DNA of 64,000 nucleotides, taken from positions 1 through 64,000 of the forward strand of contig NZ_JAKZLF010000017.1 of NCBI RefSeq assembly GCF_022808855.1, given 5' to 3'. This DNA is from Anaeromyxobacter soli. Lineage in GTDB: Bacteria; Myxococcota; Myxococcia; Myxococcales; Anaeromyxobacteraceae. A model generated the notes under the pieces. It was not told where the DNA came from and ran no database searches. It saw nothing but the letters and a program-made list of their open reading frames with translations. Every line of letters starts with the position of its first letter. Positions within the stretch are counted from its first letter, which is position 1. The position numbers were made by a program, and so were the translations under genes. Of this stretch, positions 27,515 to 63,819 are shown in pieces.

Positions 27515-28558
<1,044 letters not shown>

Positions 28559-54126: not shown

Positions 54127-55074
54127 TCAGCGCTTCTTCCCTCTCCGCGCCGCCACGGGCGGCGGGCGCGTGGCGCCGAGCGCGGGGTTCCGCTCGAGCT
54201 CCTCGATCGTGCGAGGCCAGTCCTCCTTGAGGAGCCGCGCGAGCGATCGGTCCGACAGGATCTGCCCGCCGGTCTGGCACCGCGGACAGTAGTTCACCTC
54301 GTTCTCCGCCCGCACGATGCGCTGCACCGCGGTCCCGCACACCGGGCACGGCTGGCGGTGCCGGCCGTGGACGGCCATCTCCGGACGGAACGCGGTCACG
54401 CCCTCCGGGAAGCCGCCGGCCGCCTCGCGGCGCAGGCGCTCGGTCCACTCGGAGAGCACCGCCTGCGTCGCCGCGTGCAGCCGCGCGATCTCCTCGTCGC
54501 CGAGCCGAGAGGTGAGGGTCACCGGCGAGAGCCGGGCGCGGTGCAGGATCTCGTCCGAGTAGGCGTTGCCGATCCCCGAGAAGAGCCGGGGGTCGGTGAG
54601 GGCGCGCTTCAGGGTGTGGTTCTCGCGCGTGAGCGCCGCGCGGAACGCGCCGGGATCCACGCCCAGGGGCTCGAGGCCCCCGCGGTCGAGCGCCGCGAGC
54701 GCCTCCGCCCCGCGCACGAGGTGGATCGAGGCGCGGCGCTTCGTGCCCGCCTCGGTGAGCACGAGCGAGCCGCCGGGGAAGTCGAGCGCCGCGAGCCCCA
54801 CGCGGCCGGGGAGCTTCGCCCCCTCGTCGCGCCAGTGGAGCCGGCCCGCGATCATGAGGTGGATCGCGAGGAACAGCTCGCCCTCGAGCGCGAGCACGAC
54901 GCGCTTGCCCACGCGCCGCACCGCCTCGACGCGCTTGCCGCGGGCCTCCTCCAGCGGCGGGTCCACGGAGCGCAGCACGAACGGGCTCCCGAGCCGGACG
55001 CCGAGGAGCGGCTTCCCCTGCACGCGCGCAGCGACGGCCTCGACGTACACCTCGATGTCCGGCAGCTCGGGCAC
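54127..55074 (-). CDS. mutM: Formamidopyrimidine/endonuclease VIII-family DNA glycosylase
   Basis: A 315-residue Fpg/Nei family base-excision glycosylase-AP lyase. It begins MPELPDIEVYVEAV, so Pro1 (after Met removal) is the catalytic Schiff-base residue and Glu2 follows. The DNA-binding H2TH region is FSGIGNAYSDEILHRARLSP, and the zinc finger is CPVC ... CPRC (CPVCGTAVQRIV, NEVNYCPRCQTGG). It removes oxidised bases such as 8-oxoguanine; a Nei-type specificity is possible. A basic tail of about 30 residues follows the finger. It lies 31 nt after the activator gene. Confidence 0.88.
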   Translation of the reverse strand: MPELPDIEVYVEAVAARVQGKPLLGVRLGSPFVLRSVDPPLEEARGKRVEAVRRVGKRVVLALEGELFLAIHLMIAGRLHWRDEGAKLPGRVGLAALDFPGGSLVLTEAGTKRRASIHLVRGAEALAALDRGGLEPLGVDPGAFRAALTRENHTLKRALTDPRLFSGIGNAYSDEILHRARLSPVTLTSRLGDEEIARLHAATQAVLSEWTERLRREAAGGFPEGVTAFRPEMAVHGRHRQPCPVCGTAVQRIVRAENEVNYCPRCQTGGQILSDRSLARLLKEDWPRTIEELERNPALGATRPPPVAARRGKKR

Positions 55075-55105: not shown

Positions 55106-56491
55106 TCAGCGCTCGCCCGGGTCGGCGATGCCGAGCCGGCGCATCCGCTTCCAGAGCGTGACCCGCGAGACGCCGAGCAGCTCCGCCGCCTGCGTGCGGT
55201 TCCAGCCCGTCCGCTCGAGCGCCTCGACGAGCGCGCGCCGCGCCTCGGCCTCCGGGTCGGGCGCGGCGCCCGGCGCGGACCGGCGCTCCGCGCGGAACCC
55301 CAGCACGTCCCGCGGGAGGTGCTCCGGCCGGAGCTCGCCCGGCCCGGCGCGCAGCGCGGCGTACTCGAGCGCGTTCCGGAGCTCGCGGACGTTGCCGGGC
55401 CAGGGGTACGCGCGCAGGAGGCGCAGCGCGTCCTTCGACAGGCCGCGCCCCGAGCCGAGCTCCGAGAGGAAGCGCTCCGCGAGCAGCGGCACGTCCTCGG
55501 CGTGCTCCCGCAAGGGCGGGACGCGGAGCGGGAACGCGGCCAGCCGGAAGTAGAGGTCTGCGCGGAGGCGCCCGTCCTTCACGAAGGGGCGCAGGTCCCG
55601 GTGCGTCGTGCAGAGGAGGCGCACGTCCACCGCGAGGGGGCGCTCCTCGCCAGCACGGCCGGACGCGCGCTCCTCGACGACGCGCAGGAGCTTCGCCTGC
55701 ACCGCGGGGGGCGCGTCGCCGACCTCGTCGAGGACGAGCGTTCCGCCGTCCGCCTCCGCGATCTTGCCGCGGCGCCGGCCGTCGGCGTCGCCGAACAGCT
55801 CGACGTCGAGCGCGGCCGGGCCGAGCGCAGCGCACGACACGCGCACGAGCGGCCGCTGGGCGCGATCTCCCAGGCGGTGGATCGCCTCGGCGACGCGATC
55901 CTTTCCGGTGCCGCTCTCGCCCGTGATCATCACGGTCGTGCGGGTGCGGGCGACGAGCGCGATCATCCGGAAGAGCTCGCGCATCACCTCGTGACCACCG
56001 ACGAGGCCGCACAGCTCCCCGGCGGGTGCTCCGTCGTCCCGGAGCGCCGCGGGCTCGGCGGGTCCGGCGGGCGGCGCGGTGGCGATCGGTGCGCTCGCCA
56101 CGTCCGTGAACGTCTCGAGCGTCCCCGCCGGCAGGCCGTCCGCCGCGAAGAGCGGGACCGCGTTCTTCACGATGAGCTGCGGTGCTCCGTCTCGCTTGCG
56201 GATCGTGCAGCAGAGCGAGGAGCGGGATCGCTCGGCGACCCCGCACTTCAGGAGCCCGGCGCCGCAGGGGCAGCCGTTCACCGAGTCTCCGGCCAGGATC
56301 GAGCAGCGCTGGCCGATCGCCTCGCTCCGGGGCCAGCCGGTGATCCGCTCCGCGGCGCGGTTCCAGAACGTGACCGTCCCCTCGCGATCCGTGAGGAACA
56401 GCCCGTCCGGGAGCGCGTCCGCCATCCGGCGGAGGGTCTCCACCGAGTCGAGGCCGAGGAAGGGCAGGGGGATCGGCGCGAGCTCGGGCAC
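55106..56491 (-). CDS. Sigma-54-type AAA+ activator with Cys-rich PAS, lacking GAFTGA
   Basis: A 461-residue regulator. A PAS domain (about 18-130) carries six Cys: 63, 74, 76, 83, 94 and 95. The AAA+ domain has Walker A GESGTGKD (191-198) and Walker B LVLDEVGD (252-259). Where GAFTGA belongs, it reads ELFGDADGRRRGKIAEADGG, seven residues shorter than the local relative at 27515-28558. A Fis-type HTH ends the protein (RTQAAELLGVSRVTLWKRM). Without GAFTGA it probably cannot remodel sigma-54 and may regulate another RNA polymerase form. It is divergent from the Tat lipoprotein-amidase operon. Confidence 0.92.
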   Translation of the reverse strand: MPELAPIPLPFLGLDSVETLRRMADALPDGLFLTDREGTVTFWNRAAERITGWPRSEAIGQRCSILAGDSVNGCPCGAGLLKCGVAERSRSSLCCTIRKRDGAPQLIVKNAVPLFAADGLPAGTLETFTDVASAPIATAPPAGPAEPAALRDDGAPAGELCGLVGGHEVMRELFRMIALVARTRTTVMITGESGTGKDRVAEAIHRLGDRAQRPLVRVSCAALGPAALDVELFGDADGRRRGKIAEADGGTLVLDEVGDAPPAVQAKLLRVVEERASGRAGEERPLAVDVRLLCTTHRDLRPFVKDGRLRADLYFRLAAFPLRVPPLREHAEDVPLLAERFLSELGSGRGLSKDALRLLRAYPWPGNVRELRNALEYAALRAGPGELRPEHLPRDVLGFRAERRSAPGAAPDPEAEARRALVEALERTGWNRTQAAELLGVSRVTLWKRMRRLGIADPGER

Positions 56492-56563
56492 GCAGGCGAG
56501 ATGTTAGCACCTGTCCCGGCGGAGGCGGCGGCGGGCGGCGCCCCGCTGTGCTAGGAACGCGGC

Positions 56564-56845
56564 ATGGACGACAGCCAACCGGCCGTGACCGCGACACCTC
56601 GCCGCGACTTCCTGCGGATCATGGCGCTCGCCCCCGCGCTCGCCGCGGGCTGCGCGGGCGTGCACGCCGCCGCGCCCGGCGCCCCGAGCCAGGGAGCGGA
56701 CCCCTCCGGCGCGCCGCCCGCCCCGGCGCCCGCCCGCGCCGCGCCCGGCCCGGACGTGATCGCGCCGCTGCGCGCGTTCCCGCTCGCCCTCGACGCCGAG
56801 CCCGCCTTCGTCTTCCGCGCCGCCCCGGCGCGCCCGGGAGCCTAG
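56564..56845 (+). CDS. Small Tat lipoprotein
   Basis: A 93-residue protein with a twin-arginine signal (RRDFLRIMALAPALAAGC) ending in a lipobox-type Cys. The mature part is Pro/Ala-rich with a short end ALRAFPLALDAEPAFVFRAA. It may carry a cofactor-bound or folded partner, or act as a spacer. Its stop is 1 nt before the amidase GTG, which implies operon linkage. No family recognised. Confidence 0.7.
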   Translation: MDDSQPAVTATPRRDFLRIMALAPALAAGCAGVHAAAPGAPSQGADPSGAPPAPAPARAAPGPDVIAPLRAFPLALDAEPAFVFRAAPARPGA

Positions 56846-56846
56846 C

Positions 56847-58292
56847 GTGGCCGTCTCCGACGACGTCCTGTTCTCCGGAGTCCAGGCGCTCTCCCAGAAG
56901 CTCCGCGCCCGCGAGCTCTCGCCGGTCGAGCTCGCCGAGGCGTACCTCGCGCGCATCGACGCGCACGCGGCGCGGCTCGGCTGCTTCGTCACCGTGACGC
57001 CGGAGCGCGCGCTGGCCGAGGCGCGCGCGGCGGAGGCGGAGCTCGCCGCCGGCCGCTGGCGCGGGCCGCTGCACGGCGTGCCGTACGGCCTCAAGGACCT
57101 CGTCGACACGAAGGGGATCCGCACCACCTTCGGCGCGGCGCCCTACGCGGGCCGCGTGCCCGACCGCGACGCGGCGATCGTCACGCGGCTCTCGCAGGCG
57201 GGAGCGGTGCTGCTCGGCAAGCTCTCCATGGTCGAGCTCGCGGGCGGGCTCGGCTATCACACCGGCGAGGCGGCCCTGAACGGCCCGTGCCGCACGCCTT
57301 GGGATCTCGCTCGATGGGCAGGCGGGTCGTCCTCGGGCGCCGGCTCGGCGGTGGCGGCGGGGCTCGTCGCGTTCGCCATCGGCTCGGAGACCTGGGGCTC
57401 CATCACCTGGCCGTCGGCGTTCTGCGGCGTGACGGGGCTCCGCCCGACTTACGGGGTCGTCCCGCGCCACGGCGCGATGGCGCTCTCGTACACGATGGAC
57501 AAGCTCGGGCCGATGGCGCGCAGCGCGCGGGATTGCGCGCTGGTGCTCGACGTCATCGCGGGGCCTGACGCGCGCGACCCGAGCGCCATCTCGTCGCCCC
57601 CGGTGAAGCGAATCCGTCCCGAGGTGGCGCGGGGGCTCCGCGTCGCGGTGCTCGGCTTCCCCGACAAGCCGCCCGAGCCCGCGGCCGGCGCGCGCGAGGC
57701 GTTCGCCGCGGCGGAGGGAGTGCTGCGCGAGGCGGGCGCGCTCCTCGAGCCCGCGGCGCTCCCGGACCTCCCGTACGAGGCGCTCGCCGGGTTCCTCATC
57801 GAGGCGGAGGCGGCGACCGCCTTCGAGGAGCTCATCCGCTCCGGCCGCACGCGCGAGCTCGCCGACGCCTCGCACCGCACGAAGAGCCCCGAGGACTACC
57901 TGCCGAAGGCGAACGCCTCGGATTACGTGCGCGCGATGCGCGTCCGCGGCGAGATCCAGCGCGCGCTGGCCGGCTTCTTCTCGCGCTTCGACCTCGTCCT
58001 CGCGCCCAACGTCCCCTTCGTGCCGCCGCGCGTCGAGGAGAACTTCGACGCCATCTCGGAGAGCCCCGACCCCCTCGGCGCGGCCGGCAACGTGGCCGGG
58101 CTCCCGGCGGTGGCGCTCCCGATGGGCTTCTCCGGCAAGCTGCCCCTCTCGCTGCAGCTCGTCGGGCCTCCGCTCGAGGAGGGGCGCCTCCTCTCGGTGG
58201 CGGCCCTCTTCCAGGCGAAGACGCAGCACCATCTCGCCCGCCCCGAGCTCTCACCCCCCGCCGTGCCCGTCGCCGCCGTGACCGGACGGTGA
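56847..58292 (+). CDS. Amidase signature (AS) family hydrolase
   Basis: A 481-residue Ser-cisSer-Lys amidase. Lys83 is in YGLKDLVDT, cis-Ser162 in WAGGSSSGAGSAVAAG and the nucleophile Ser186 in GSETWGSITWPSAFCG; the 24-residue Ser-Ser spacing is canonical, although the usual GSDTGGSI reads GSETWGSI. The substrate cannot be told. It is not the GatA of a GatCAB operon since gatB and gatC are absent. It begins with a GTG and its stop overlaps the next GTG (GTGA). Confidence 0.9.
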   Translation: MAVSDDVLFSGVQALSQKLRARELSPVELAEAYLARIDAHAARLGCFVTVTPERALAEARAAEAELAAGRWRGPLHGVPYGLKDLVDTKGIRTTFGAAPYAGRVPDRDAAIVTRLSQAGAVLLGKLSMVELAGGLGYHTGEAALNGPCRTPWDLARWAGGSSSGAGSAVAAGLVAFAIGSETWGSITWPSAFCGVTGLRPTYGVVPRHGAMALSYTMDKLGPMARSARDCALVLDVIAGPDARDPSAISSPPVKRIRPEVARGLRVAVLGFPDKPPEPAAGAREAFAAAEGVLREAGALLEPAALPDLPYEALAGFLIEAEAATAFEELIRSGRTRELADASHRTKSPEDYLPKANASDYVRAMRVRGEIQRALAGFFSRFDLVLAPNVPFVPPRVEENFDAISESPDPLGAAGNVAGLPAVALPMGFSGKLPLSLQLVGPPLEEGRLLSVAALFQAKTQHHLARPELSPPAVPVAAVTGR

Positions 58293-59092
58293 CGTCCGCT
58301 CAGGACCATTCGCCCGTGCCCGTCATCGCCGCGATCGGCTACTTCTTCACCGGCCTCGTCATCCTGCTCGCGCTGCCGCTGCAGGTGCTGCTCTTCGCCG
58401 TCACGTTCCCGTTCGACCGGAACCGCGCGGTCGCGGGCCGCTTCTCGCGGCTCGTCGCCGTGGCCGTCACGCGGACGTTCCCGCCCTGGCGGCTGCGCAT
58501 CGAGGGGCGCTGGCCGCGCGGGCGGCAGGCGTACGTGGTCGTCGCGAACCACCAGTCGATGCTGGACATCCTCATGCTCTCGAAGCTCCCTCGCGAGATG
58601 AAGTGGATCGCGAAGGAGTCGCTCTTCAAGGTGCCCTGGGTCGGCTGGATGTTCCGCCTCTCGGGCGACATCCCGGTCCGGCGCGGCGACTCGGAGAGCG
58701 GCGGCGAGGCGCTCGCGAAGGCGCGCCGCTACCTCGAGCGCGGCATGAACGTGATGATCTTCCCGGAGGGGACGCGGAGCACGAGCGCGAAGCTCCTGCC
58801 CTTCAAGTCGGGCGCGTTCCGGCTCGCGATCGAGGCGGGGGTGCCGATCCTGCCGGTCGCGGTGCACGGTGCGGCGCAGGGCATGCCGAAGGGGAGCCCG
58901 TGGGTCCGGCCGTGCCGCGCCTATGCGCGCATCCTCGAGCCGGTCCCCACCGCCGGCCTGAGGCCCGAGGACGCGGGCCGGCTCAAGGACGAGGTGCGCC
59001 GCCGCATCGCCGCGGCGCTCCCTGCCGCGGACGTGGCGAACGGCGACGCGCCGGCGCGGTCCGTCGAGCCCGGAGCGCCGGCTCGGACGTGA
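58289..59092 (+). CDS. plsC: 1-acyl-sn-glycerol-3-phosphate acyltransferase (PlsC family)
   Basis: A 267-residue membrane acyltransferase of phospholipid synthesis. An N-terminal hydrophobic helix (FFTGLVILLALPLQVLLFAV) precedes the motifs NHQSMLDILML (HX4D), GDIPVRRGDSESG, IFPEGTRSTSAKL and PILPVAVHGAA. The start GTG overlaps the amidase stop. Basic residues around 40-60 fit the inner face of the membrane. The operon link to the amidase may be functional, as in lipid or acyl amide metabolism, or only co-expression. Confidence 0.9.
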   Translation: MTSAQDHSPVPVIAAIGYFFTGLVILLALPLQVLLFAVTFPFDRNRAVAGRFSRLVAVAVTRTFPPWRLRIEGRWPRGRQAYVVVANHQSMLDILMLSKLPREMKWIAKESLFKVPWVGWMFRLSGDIPVRRGDSESGGEALAKARRYLERGMNVMIFPEGTRSTSAKLLPFKSGAFRLAIEAGVPILPVAVHGAAQGMPKGSPWVRPCRAYARILEPVPTAGLRPEDAGRLKDEVRRRIAAALPAADVANGDAPARSVEPGAPART

Positions 59093-59230: not shown

Positions 59231-60403
59231 GTGACCGTCCTCCTCGGCTACGGCACCCGCACCCTCGCGCTCCCGGACCTCCCCGGCGCGCGCGTGCTCC
59301 TCCCGCCCACTCCGCCCCCCGTGCCGGATCTCGAGGCGGCGATCGACGCAGCGCTCGCCCATCCCGTCGGCGCGCGTCCGCTCGCGACGGTCGCGACGGC
59401 GCGCACGCGCGTGGTGGTGATCGTGAGCGACGCCTCGCGCGACGAGCCGCGCGCGGAGCTCTTCGCGGCGGTTCGGCGCGCGCTCGGCGCGGTACCGGAC
59501 GACCACCTCACGATCGCGGTGGCGAACGGGACGCACGGCCCCAAGCCGCTCGAGCGGCTCGGCCTGCCCGCCGCCGTCCTCGGCCGGCACCGGGTGGTGA
59601 ACCACGACGCCCGCGACGACGCGTCGATGGTGGAGATGGGCCGGACGAGCCGCGGGACGCGCATCCGGGTGAACCGCTGCGTCGCCGAGGCGGACCTCAT
59701 CGTCTCGACGGGCCGCGTGAAGCCGCACTACTTCGCGGGCTGGGGCGGCGGCGCGAAGGGGATCTTCCCCGGGCTCGGCCACGACGTGGACATCCGCCAG
59801 AACCACCGGCTCAAGGCGGAGGAGACCTCGGCGCTCGGCCGCGCCGACGGGAACCCGTGCCGCGAGGATCTCGAGGAGGCGGTGCGGCGGATCGGTCGCG
59901 ACACCTACCTCGTGAACGTCGTCGAGGCGGGCGGCACGATCGTGGGCGCGGTCGCGGGCGACGTCGTCTACGCCCACCGCGAGGGCGTCCGCCTCGCCCG
60001 GCCCTGGTGCGAGGTCGAGGCGCCGAAGGCGGACGTGGTGATCGTCTCCGCGCCGCTGCCGGTGTCGGGCTCGCTCTACCAGGCCTCGAAGCTCATCCCG
60101 CCCGCGGGGCTGCTGCTCCGCGAGGGCGGCGTGGTGATCGTGGCGGCGGAGTGCCCGGAGGGCACCGGTCCGCTGCAGGTCGTGAACGAGGGGATCTTCG
60201 AGCTCGGCGTGCGGCGCTACCTGCCCGCCGGCGCGACGGTGCTGCTCGTCTCCGGGATGGACGAGGCGACGGTGCGCGAGACGTACGCGACCTTCGCGCC
60301 CGACCTCGCGGCCGCGATCGCGAGCGCCCGCGAGCGCGTCGGACGCGAGGCGACCGTCCTCGTGCTGCCGGACGCGGGCGACCTCGTGCCGCGGGCGGTG
60401 TGA
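59231..60403 (+). CDS. LarA-family nickel-pincer racemase/epimerase-like protein
   Basis: A 390-residue protein with all core features of the LarA (DUF2088) family: SDASRDEP near residue 66, NGTHG (His102), and KPHYFAGWGGGAKGIFPGL with His166 and Lys176, then His192 in RQNH. The spacings 166-176-192 equal the His174-Lys184-His200 of lactate racemase that hold the nickel pincer cofactor. Substrate may be lactate or another 2-hydroxy acid. No larB, larC or larE is nearby. Start is a GTG at 59231. Confidence 0.9.
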   Translation: MTVLLGYGTRTLALPDLPGARVLLPPTPPPVPDLEAAIDAALAHPVGARPLATVATARTRVVVIVSDASRDEPRAELFAAVRRALGAVPDDHLTIAVANGTHGPKPLERLGLPAAVLGRHRVVNHDARDDASMVEMGRTSRGTRIRVNRCVAEADLIVSTGRVKPHYFAGWGGGAKGIFPGLGHDVDIRQNHRLKAEETSALGRADGNPCREDLEEAVRRIGRDTYLVNVVEAGGTIVGAVAGDVVYAHREGVRLARPWCEVEAPKADVVIVSAPLPVSGSLYQASKLIPPAGLLLREGGVVIVAAECPEGTGPLQVVNEGIFELGVRRYLPAGATVLLVSGMDEATVRETYATFAPDLAAAIASARERVGREATVLVLPDAGDLVPRAV

Positions 60404-60648
60404 GCGGCGCGCGCGTCGCCCGGTGAAGCCGAGCGTCGCCCCGGCGGCGCACCGCGGGCCTTCGTGCCACGCGCTTCATCGCCCCGCCATCGTGCGCACC
60501 GGACCACCGCACCGCATCGCGCCGGCGCGCTCCGAGCGCTCCCCAGGACGCGCGCCCCGCGGCGGGAGCCTGGACCCCTGGATGGGCTGATGACAGATCG
60601 CGGGCAGCCGCTGGACGTGCGCACGCGGCGACGTTATCGGCACCCGGG

Positions 60649-61569
60649 ATGAGCTCGCTGCGCTACCCCATCCGCGCGGTGTCGAGGCTGACCGGGATCT
60701 CGGTCGACACGCTGCGTGCGTGGGAGCGGCGCTACCGGGTGGTCGAGCCGCAGCGCGACGAGCGCGGGAGGCTCTACTCCGAGGAGGACGTGGAGCGGCT
60801 CCGGCTCCTCGCGCAGGCGGTCGGGCGCGGGCACGCGATCGGGCGCATCGCGGCGCTGCCTCTGGACGAGCTCCGCGCGCTGGTCGCCTCGGGAGGAGGC
60901 GAGCCGGAGCTCCTGCGCCCCGGAGCGCCGGTCGATCTCGCGAGCTTGCGGGCGGCGATCGAGCGCTTCGAGCCCGCCGCGTTCCGCCGCGAGCTCTCCC
61001 ACCTCGCCGCGGTCCTCCCCGCTCACGCGCTCGCGCGCGACGTGGCCCTCCCGCTCCTGCGCGCCGTCGGCGAGGGGTGGCACGAGGGGCGGCTCTCCGT
61101 CACGCAGGAGCACCTCGTCTCCTCGGAGCTGCGGAGCCTGCTCGGCGCGCTCGTGCGGCTGCAGCCCATCCACGAGAACGCGCCCCGCCTCGTGCTCGCG
61201 ACGCCCGAGGGCGAGCTGCACGAGCTCGGGACGCTCGCCGCCGCGCTCGTGGCCGCGATCGCGGGCCTCGGCGCGATCTACCTCGGACCGAGCCTCCCCG
61301 CCGCGGAGGTCGTCGCCGCGGCGCAGTACGCCGCCGCGCGCGTGGTCGTGCTCGGCCTCACCGGGGGTGCCTCGCCGCAGGCCCTCGAGGCCGTCGCCGC
61401 GGTCGCGCGCGAGCTGCCAGCGAGCGTGGAGGTGTGGGTCGGCGGGGCCGGGGCGGACGCCGCAGCGCAGGCCGGAGCGCCGCGCGTGCAGGCCATCGCG
61501 GACCTCGACGCCTTCGAGCGGGCGCTCGGGAGGGTGAGGGTGGGCGGGTCGCGCGGAGCGACTGACTGA
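60649..61569 (+). CDS. CarH-like MerR regulator with cobalamin-binding domain
   Basis: A 306-residue light- or B12-sensing regulator. The MerR-type HTH is at residues 6-60 (YPIRAVSRLTGISVDTLRAWERRY). A helical bundle follows with W144-x9-E154-H155, and the B12 domain has E189-L-H191-x2-G194, the canonical ExHxxG motif whose His is the lower axial cobalamin ligand. These are the CarH/CarA signatures used for adenosylcobalamin photosensing and carotenoid gene control in myxobacteria. No carotenoid genes lie in the window. The end is convergent with hypB. Confidence 0.92.
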   Translation: MSSLRYPIRAVSRLTGISVDTLRAWERRYRVVEPQRDERGRLYSEEDVERLRLLAQAVGRGHAIGRIAALPLDELRALVASGGGEPELLRPGAPVDLASLRAAIERFEPAAFRRELSHLAAVLPAHALARDVALPLLRAVGEGWHEGRLSVTQEHLVSSELRSLLGALVRLQPIHENAPRLVLATPEGELHELGTLAAALVAAIAGLGAIYLGPSLPAAEVVAAAQYAAARVVVLGLTGGASPQALEAVAAVARELPASVEVWVGGAGADAAAQAGAPRVQAIADLDAFERALGRVRVGGSRGATD

Positions 61570-61584
61570 GCGCGGCGCTCAGTC
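61564..61584. terminator. Palindrome overlapping two stop codons
   Basis: gactgagcgc / gcgctcagtc around a single g, a 10-bp perfect palindrome. It contains the TGA of the CarH-like gene (61567-61569) and the TCA complement of the hypB stop (61579-61581), so it may act in both directions. Confidence 0.6.
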
Positions 61585-62445
61585 GTGGTCGTGCTTCCCG
61601 CCGCGGGCGTGCCCGTGGTGATCCGCGCTGCCGTGCTCGTGCTCGTGCCCGTCGTGGGAGTGGGCATGCGAGTGGCGCTCGTCACCGTGGGCGTGCTCGT
61701 GCGAATGCGCGTGCGAGTGCTCGTGGCCGTGGGCATGCGCGTCCGCGCCGCCGAGGCCGATCCCGTCGCGCAGCTCCTCGAGCCACGCCACCCACGCGTC
61801 CATCCCCTGGCCGGTGCGGGCGGAGACCTCGATCATCCGCGGCCGCGGCATCACGCGCGCGAGCGCGTCGTGGATCTTGGCGAGCTCGACGTCGAGGTGC
61901 GGGACGAGATCGCACTTCGTGAGCAGCACGAGGTCGGCGGCGTTGAACATCACCGGGTACTTGAGCGGCTTGTCCTCGCCCTCGGTGACGGAGAGCACCA
62001 CCACGTTGGCCGCCTGGCCCAGGTCGTAGATGGCCGGGCAGACGAGGTTGCCGACGTTCTCGATGAAGAACATGTCGGTGTCGCGCCAGGGGAAGTCGTG
62101 GAGCGAGCGGTGCACGAGCTCGGCGTCCAGGTGGCAGGCCTGGCCGGTGGTGATGGCCTTCGAGGGGATGCCCGCCTTCTGGAGCCGGCGCGCGTCGTTG
62201 TCGGTCGCGAGATCGGCGGAGACGGCGCCGAGCCTCCAGCCCTTCGCGGCCGCGGCCTTCGCGGTCGCCTCGAGCACGGCGGTCTTGCCCGCGCCGGGCG
62301 AGCCCATGAGGTTCAGGGCGAGGACGCGCGCCTCGAGGAAGTGCTCGCGGTTGTGGCGCGCGGCGCGGTCGTTCCCGGCCAGGATCTTCTCGTGGAGCTC
62401 CACCGGGACGAGCTCGGTGTCGCCGCAGCCGCAGGTCGTGCACAT
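61579..62445 (-). CDS. hypB: Hydrogenase/urease nickel incorporation GTPase HypB
   Basis: HypB delivers nickel to [NiFe] hydrogenase with HypA. The 288-residue protein begins MCTTCGCGD (the CxxCGC-type high-affinity Ni site) and has a G domain: P-loop GSPGAGKT, FIENVGNLVCPA, LLTKCDL. The last ~54 residues form a His-rich nickel store with about 21 His (DAHAHGHEHSHAHSH...). In better-studied HypB the His-rich part is N-terminal, so its place here is unusual. The ATG overlaps the hypA stop by 1 nt. Confidence 0.96.
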   Translation of the reverse strand: MCTTCGCGDTELVPVELHEKILAGNDRAARHNREHFLEARVLALNLMGSPGAGKTAVLEATAKAAAAKGWRLGAVSADLATDNDARRLQKAGIPSKAITTGQACHLDAELVHRSLHDFPWRDTDMFFIENVGNLVCPAIYDLGQAANVVVLSVTEGEDKPLKYPVMFNAADLVLLTKCDLVPHLDVELAKIHDALARVMPRPRMIEVSARTGQGMDAWVAWLEELRDGIGLGGADAHAHGHEHSHAHSHEHAHGDERHSHAHSHDGHEHEHGSADHHGHARGGKHDHD

Positions 62446-62789
62446 CAGGGGACCTCCATCTCGATGCCGTCGAGGGTCAGCGCGTCGGAGCCGTCGTCGA
62501 GCTTGCCGGGCGTGTCGCAGGCCGGGCAGCGCAGGATGGCGCCGCGCGCGATGGGCGTCCTGCAGCGCGGGCAGGACCAGCTCGCCGCGACGCGGGTGAG
62601 GGTGAGCGGGACGCCCGCGCAGATCGTGCCCGCGCGGAACGTCTCGTAGGCGGTCTGGAAGAGCTCGGGATCGACGCCCGAGAGCTCGCCCACGCGGACG
62701 GAGAGCTTGTGCACCGCGATCGCGTCGCGCTTCTTCGCCTCCGCCTCCACGCGGGTGACGAGCGCCTCGACGAGGGAGTACTCGTGCAT
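62445..62789 (-). CDS. hypA: Hydrogenase nickel insertion protein HypA
   Basis: A 114-residue nickel chaperone. The N-terminal MHEYS supplies the His2 ligand, and the zinc-binding loop is seen as WSCPRCRTPI ... ILRCPACDTPGK (two CPxC pairs). It functions with HypB in nickel transfer to hydrogenase. It overlaps hypB by 1 nt and follows hypE by 7 nt. Confidence 0.96.
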   Translation of the reverse strand: MHEYSLVEALVTRVEAEAKKRDAIAVHKLSVRVGELSGVDPELFQTAYETFRAGTICAGVPLTLTRVAASWSCPRCRTPIARGAILRCPACDTPGKLDDGSDALTLDGIEMEVP

Positions 62790-62796
62790 TCCGCGC

Positions 62797-63819
62797 CTAG
62801 CAGATCCGCGGGAGGAGCTCGCCCTCGGGCTCCGCGAGCATGCGCTTGCCGAACCCGGTGTCGAGGATGACCGCGCCGGGCCGCTCGCCGATGGCGGTGG
62901 CGATGACGATCGCCGAGGCGCCCAGCGGATGGGCCCGCAGCGCGGCGAGGACCTTGTCCGCCGAGCGCGCCCGCACGCCGATGACCGCCTTGCCCTCGTT
63001 CGCGACGAGGAGCGGGTCGATGCCGATCATCTCGCCCGCGGCGCGCACCTCGTCGCGCACCGGCAGCGCGGTCTCGTCGATGACGATGCCGACCTTGCCC
63101 TTCGCGGCCATCTCGTGGAGCACGCCCGCGACGCCGCCGCGGGTCGGGTCCTTCATCGCCACCACGTCCTCGCCGCCGGCGCGGAGCGCCTCGCGGACGA
63201 GCCCGTTGAGCGGCGCCACGTCGGAGCGGAGGTCGCCCTCGAGCCGCAGGTCGTGGCGGCGCGACATGATGGCCATGCCGTGGTCGCCGATGGTGCCGGT
63301 GACGATGACGAGGTCTCCGGCGCGCAGGCCCGCGTCGCTGACGACGCGATCGGCGAGCGCGACGCCGGTCGTGTTGAGGACGATCCCGTCCACCTCGCCC
63401 TTGCCCATCACCTTGGTGTCGCCGGTGACGATGGGCGCGTTCGCCTCGCGCGCCGTCTCGCGCATCGAGGCCACGACGCGCTCCAGGTCGGCGCGCGGGA
63501 AGCCCTCCTCGAGCACCACCGCGCAGGTGAGGCCGAGCGGCTCGGTCGCGCCCATCATGGCGAGGTCGTTCACGGTGCCGGAGACGCTGAGCCGACCGAT
63601 GTCGCCGCCCGGGAAGAAGATGGGGTGCACGACGTGGGAGTCGGTGGTGACGACGAGCCAGCGATCGCCGACGCGGATGGCCGCGCCGTCGTCGAGCGCC
63701 GAGAGGCCGATGCCGTCCACCGGGGAGGCGAGGGTGAGGAACACGTCCTCGATGAGCTGGCGCATCGCGCGCCCGCCCGAGCCGTGCTTGAGCCCGATCT
63801 TCGCCTGGGGCTTCTCCAT
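62797..63819 (-). CDS. hypE: Hydrogenase carbamoyl dehydratase HypE
   Basis: A 340-residue protein that converts carbamoyl transferred by HypF to the thiocyanate-like cyanide donor for the Fe(CN)2CO centre. The N-terminal KIGLKHGSGGRAM is typical, with VVTTDSHVVHPIFFPGGDIG and MKDPTRGGVAGVLHEM. The C-terminal Cys that carries the carbamoyl or cyanide group is present at the end (LLPRIC). It overlaps no gene and lies directly after hypD. Confidence 0.97.
   Translation of the reverse strand: MEKPQAKIGLKHGSGGRAMRQLIEDVFLTLASPVDGIGLSALDDGAAIRVGDRWLVVTTDSHVVHPIFFPGGDIGRLSVSGTVNDLAMMGATEPLGLTCAVVLEEGFPRADLERVVASMRETAREANAPIVTGDTKVMGKGEVDGIVLNTTGVALADRVVSDAGLRAGDLVIVTGTIGDHGMAIMSRRHDLRLEGDLRSDVAPLNGLVREALRAGGEDVVAMKDPTRGGVAGVLHEMAAKGKVGIVIDETALPVRDEVRAAGEMIGIDPLLVANEGKAVIGVRARSADKVLAALRAHPLGASAIVIATAIGERPGAVILDTGFGKRMLAEPEGELLPRIC

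Follow-up and report, generated by a model that had tools for sequence, protein, structure and literature searches.

Homologues of sigma-54 enhancer-binding proteins (EBPs) that lack the GAFTGA motif and act at sigma-70 promoters form an established class. The NtrC proteins of Caulobacter (with an 8-residue deletion in L1) and of Rhodobacter capsulatus have no GAFTGA and are reported to activate or repress at sigma-70 promoters (PMC10274813, PMC12421884). TyrR, DhaR, HupR, VpsR, and YplP are proteins of the PF00158 type with a defective GAFTGA, and TyrR, DhaR, and HupR have been shown to be sigma-70 dependent (PMC3162934). Among EBPs that keep the motif, Desulfovibrio DVU3142 is a one-component regulator encoded divergently from an octahaem cytochrome (ohc) operon, for which sigma-54 promoter drive is predicted (PMC4641369).

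The known losses of GAFTGA lie in scattered, older lineages whose ancestral state is distant. Here, we describe a regulator (REG) from Anaeromyxobacter soli whose sister copy in the same genome still bears GAFTGA and is accompanied by its likely operator and target. What is new in REG is its Cys-rich PAS sensor, a recent duplication that can be traced, and a parallel loss in a relative. Coordinates without a locus name refer to the window, the 64,000-nucleotide stretch of DNA that was analyzed.

Domain structure and loss of the L1 loop

REG is a PAS/sigma-54-type AAA+/Fis-HTH regulator of 461 amino acids with a GTG start (55106..56491, minus strand), and an earlier sequence-only reading had its open reading frame, coordinates, and strand right. 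The protein scores above cut-off with all four relevant Pfam models (PAS, Sigma54_activat, AAA lid, and HTH_8), and alignment shows that its N-terminus, LPFLGL, is common to the paralogues. On the minus strand we find a PAS domain (residues 20-132; 56096..56434; PF00989), an AAA+ ATPase with its lid (residues 161-401; 55289..56011; PF00158 and PF25601), and a Fis-type HTH (residues 412-455; 55127..55258; PF02954). The recognition helix of the HTH, SRVTLWKRM, is identical in the alignment to that of a paralogue in the same genome. Walker A (GESGTGK; 55901..55921, minus strand), the Walker B Asp-Glu pair (D255 and E256; 55724..55729, minus strand), both arginine-finger Arg residues, and sensor-II GNVREL are all intact, so that the PF00158-type core has the nucleotide-site equipment of a sigma-54 EBP. 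In an AlphaFold model the AAA+ fold is kept (pLDDT mostly >90) and lies within ~1.6-2.4 Å of FleQ, ZraR, and PspF across ~240 residues. The PAS core is modeled confidently except for the Cys loop at residues 70-88, where pLDDT is <50.

The GAFTGA motif of a functional sigma-54 EBP is absent from L1 of REG. This region reads ELFGDADG-------RRRGKIAEADGG and is seven residues shorter than both the closest paralogue and the local relative at 27.5 kb; the scar left by the in-frame deletion is DADGRRRG (55766..55789, minus strand), and the stretch from ELFG to the Walker B strand is DADGRRRGKIAEADGG. The L2 loop is altered as well, with GRAG in place of ERVG in the alignment (55649..55660, minus strand). 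No GAFTGA was found at L1 in any of the three frames of the minus strand, and two syntenic orthologues from other genomes of the genus carry in-frame L1 scars of seven and eight residues. This in-frame scar, shared with the orthologues, rules out a sequencing or frame error as the cause of the missing motif. The deletion, its length relative to the 27.5 kb protein, and the intact Walker motifs and HTH had all been called from the letters, and alignment and Pfam bear them out; the accompanying view that this cannot be an ordinary sigma-54 activator is supported.

Among the 44 full EBP-type ATPase domains that we inspected in the host genome (G000), only REG is without the L1 loop, the loop length being intact in the 43 others. 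Three of these have a changed motif in a loop of normal length: L201 (G000:C2:74907-75407) with GAFGDA, and L018 (G000:C17:12288-12788) and L199 (G000:C1:74423-74926), both with GAFTDA. The local relative at 27515-28558 (plus strand) carries GAFTGA, yet its N-terminal sensor domain is all but missing, which gives it a PspF-like layout.

With an EBP architecture and a GAFTGA deletion that is kept in its orthologues, REG would join the GAFTGA-less, sigma-70-acting functional class on architectural grounds. By sequence, it fits none of the known GAFTGA-less families. Like the NtrC proteins of Caulobacter and R. capsulatus, it combines an in-frame L1 deletion with preserved Walker motifs; those proteins, however, belong to two-component systems and have a receiver domain, whereas REG has none and instead carries a Cys-rich PAS, and its loss was independent and followed a recent duplication. 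Membership in NtrC was rejected on this domain difference and on the NtrC model score (222 bits versus a cut-off of 559). The comparison with TyrR that had been proposed from the sequence, made here by model score, shows that REG is not a TyrR (171 bits versus a cut-off of 576), and its sensor domain differs from those of TyrR, DhaR, HupR, VpsR, and YplP.

A Cys-rich PAS inherited from a GAFTGA-bearing family

The six Cys residues of the PAS domain are at positions 63, 74, 76, 83, 94, and 95 (56207..56305, minus strand), exactly where the sequence-only reading had placed them. Five of the six are invariant in the orthologues and also in the GAFTGA-bearing paralogues, the exception being C94. 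Since these paralogues have the same Cys, the Cys-rich PAS characterizes the parent family and is not a special partner of GAFTGA loss: the two features do occur together as had been noticed, but the sensor was inherited and the loop was lost later. The earlier suggestion of an Fe-S, metal, or thiol sensor holds in outline, in that the conserved cluster appears suited to sensing of the redox, metal, or Fe-S kind, with its chemistry putative. REG shows the pattern of a subfamily of one-component EBPs with a five-Cys PAS, AAA+, and Fis HTH, relatives of which in Desulfobacterota have the five Cys with the middle pair shifted. XibR, an iron-binding regulator of the NtrC family, was set aside as an analogue, as it keeps GAFTGA.

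The paralogue in the host genome (G000:C42; L141:6295-7746) is 57% identical to REG and shares its domains, five Cys, and recognition helix, but retains GAFTGA. Next to it is a gene for an octahaem (eight-CxxCH) cytochrome, which has a promoter resembling those of sigma-54 and is accompanied by a GTTCAC/GTGAAC palindrome. Among the genomes searched, REG itself is represented by three proteins, that of the host and orthologues with 83% (G003) and 67% (G007) identity. In a family tree computed without the L1 columns, the three group together (100/100) as sister to the GAFTGA-bearing paralogues of G000 and G007 (100/99). The tree needs two losses of GAFTGA, one in REG and one in a protein of genome G011 (L148). 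This second GAFTGA-less PAS-Cys member (G011:C5, 6711-8138), in which L1 is replaced by ANLRASASTGGDDR, resembles REG in having lost the loop; it differs in the independence of the loss, in a more degraded L1, and in a neighborhood that is not shared. It adjoins a multihaem cytochrome gene.

Most genes of the GAFTGA-bearing family are oriented divergently from a gene for a multihaem cytochrome. The neighbors in G002 and G012 are octahaem cytochromes of the tetrathionate reductase family (TIGR04315, below cut-off, E ~1e-92), those in G001 and G005 are proteins similar to them, and that in the host is another eight-CxxCH cytochrome; a different gene is the neighbor in G007 and G006. GTTCAC/GTGAAC palindromes occur in the upstream regions (three within ~170 bp in G002, versus 14 in that entire genome), and a sigma-54-like site precedes the cytochrome. 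The parent of REG can be likened to DVU3142 by the published operon setting of the latter, which, unlike REG, keeps GAFTGA. A search of the whole host genome returned seven such palindromes, one of them at the paralogue, and the few of the others that were inspected gave no clear REG target. In genome G003, where the contig is contiguous, REG is encoded but neither the paralogue nor its cytochrome is present.

Genomic context and the divergent operon

Gene order around REG is the same in the host, G003, and G007: malic enzyme, a DUF4091-like protein, fpg, REG, lipoprotein, amidase, plsC, and LarA. The gene for an Fpg/MutM-type DNA glycosylase (54127..55074, minus strand; PF01149/PF06831) lies 32 bp 3' of REG, and coordinate arithmetic gives a spacing of ~32-37 bp in all three genomes; the two genes are probably co-transcribed. 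On the other side, a gap of 72 bp (56492..56563) separates REG from a divergent operon on the plus strand that encodes a small Tat-type lipoprotein (56564..56845), an AtzE/GatA-like amidase (56847..58292), and a PlsC-type acyltransferase (58289..59092; TIGR00530 above cut-off). Further along, at 59231-63819, a homologue of the LarA-type nickel-pincer racemase is encoded, with a MerR/CarH-like regulator and nickel maturation genes resembling hypB-hypA-hypE close by, a possible nickel link.

No sigma-54 -24/-12 site was found in the gap, and matches across the window are below chance level. Neither the gap nor any other part of the window contains the parental regulator's GTTCAC/GTGAAC palindrome, and a sigma-70 consensus scan of the 72 bp returned no match. 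By eye only, -10-like hexamers can be recognized on the REG side (TAACAT) and on the lipoprotein side (TAGGAA). The gap also contains a weak inverted repeat, TAGCAC/GTGCTA, which may represent two face-to-face -10 elements. A search for an operator motif shared by the REG loci found none.

At the same site in G002, G005, and G006 (the last with a small extra insert) there is no REG, and fpg stands back to back with the lipoprotein-amidase operon. REG was thus either inserted here or lost from the others, and insertion would be the simpler reading given the tree. As the divergent operon occurs without REG in relatives, REG could at most modulate it. The sequence-only reading had cast REG as a possible regulator of this operon; a required role is unsupported, because Fpg, the lipoprotein, the amidase, and PlsC are found in relatives that have no REG and the parental palindrome is missing from gap and window. 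Control of the operon by REG is possible but unproven.

Rates of evolution and possible functions

In REG the AAA+ domain is the one that changes more quickly, and the sensor and HTH are under constraint; the paralogue in the same two genomes shows the reverse. Between G000 and G007, dN of the AAA+ domain is 0.217 for REG versus 0.101 for the paralogue, whereas dN of PAS plus HTH is 0.126 versus 0.194. This reversal was recovered in 999 of 1000 codon bootstraps (P ~0.001) and is also seen in residue changes (Fisher P 0.003, same genome pair). Omega of the HTH is low across the REG pairs (0.04-0.17), and therefore DNA binding has been kept; that of the AAA+ domain is ~0.4, well below 1.

The explanation that we favor, and consider probable though by no means certain, is that REG arose when a one-component sigma-54 activator was duplicated and the copy was neofunctionalised, and that it is now a signal-gated DNA-binding regulator of sigma-70-type promoters with a motor that does not remodel sigma-54. 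An activator with a five-Cys PAS and GAFTGA would have been duplicated. REG, the copy, lies between fpg and the operon that starts with the lipoprotein gene, and the sequences show that its L1 loop was lost in frame before the three species diverged. Through Cys 63, 74, 76, 83, and 95, the PAS domain may bind a metal or an Fe-S cluster or serve as a thiol switch; the signal would alter the oligomer state or the DNA affinity of REG, which, at its own sites, would then block or assist RNA polymerase carrying a sigma-70-type factor. The oligomer may still depend on ATP binding for its cohesion, with sigma-54 remodelling gone. The nearest candidate targets would be the promoter of REG itself (with downstream fpg) and the facing operon.

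We read REG as independent of sigma-54 because the loop is absent in all three orthologues, the ERVG of L2 is lost, and the divergent gap has no sigma-54 site, and because the published GAFTGA-less NtrC, TyrR, DhaR, and HupR act on sigma-70 promoters. Its persistence in G003 without paralogue and cytochrome also speaks for the favored explanation. The idea of a redox-sensing AAA+ regulator that acts with sigma-70 or as a repressor, already put forward from the sequence, thus fares well in its sigma-54-independent part, which fits both the GAFTGA-less relatives and the evolutionary rates, and in outline only for redox sensing. Against our reading, the intact Walker motifs, arginine fingers, and sensor II and the AAA+ omega of ~0.4 leave room for a role of ATP binding or hydrolysis, as in the NtrC of Caulobacter. 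The fuller scenario, in which a Cys-sensing activator was duplicated, lost its grip on sigma-54, and became a redox- or metal-gated DNA-binding switch at sigma-70 promoters within one genus, and in which a sister genus underwent its own parallel loss, is put forward tentatively.

The identical recognition helix raises the alternative that REG antagonizes its paralogue, by occupying the GTTCAC/GTGAAC sites before the cytochrome gene or by forming mixed hexamers that poison sigma-54 activation. Such palindromes do occur in the stretch that separates the paralogue from the cytochrome gene, and the intact fold and nucleotide site would permit mixed rings; however, G003 keeps REG in the absence of both paralogue and cytochrome, which rules out antagonism as the only role to have been conserved, and we think the alternative rather unlikely. 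A true ATP-driven regulator of sigma-70 promoters that switches the divergent operon and the REG-fpg transcript, as has been argued for Caulobacter NtrC, would account for the integrity of every nucleotide-site residue, the shared 72-bp promoter gap, and the tight REG-fpg spacing in three genomes. It is improbable in view of the ATPase being the faster-evolving domain, the presence of the operon without REG in several relatives, and the failure of the motif search. That REG contacts sigma-54 through another surface could draw on Caulobacter NtrC alleles without GAFTGA that raised sigma-54-dependent flagellar transcripts, and on the single rpoN of the host genome, but the Caulobacter effect came with DNA-binding mutants, L1 and L2 of REG are both degraded, and no -24/-12 site lies near it, which makes such contact very unlikely. 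The relaxed AAA+ domain, relative to the paralogue, might suggest a decaying pseudogene, which is hardly credible for an open frame with an in-frame deletion, conserved synteny, and PAS and HTH domains under strong purifying selection in three species.

If the favored reading of REG as a sigma-54-independent regulator is true, the locus offers a traceable conversion from a sigma-54 activator. As the sister copy with GAFTGA resides in the same genome, the steps of this conversion can be tested by domain swaps between the two proteins (57% identity). REG also warns against labelling every PF00158 protein a sigma-54 activator.

In a further observation, three genomes (L141:7940-10240, plus strand; L148:3635-6637, plus strand; L229, nt ~1474, plus strand) encode an eight-CxxCH cytochrome whose reading frame contains a conserved TGA (GMYGK[WT]*PPS.D.SQLARK). 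No NCBIfam model scored over its cut-off, and the model for ExtKL (NF040886), a known selenoprotein cytochrome, gave no match. A hairpin, GAGCCAGTTGGC, lies 3' of the TGA, with a folding energy that is not unusual. All three genomes carry a full-length SelB, and the protein is a probable selenoprotein cytochrome as judged from its gene.
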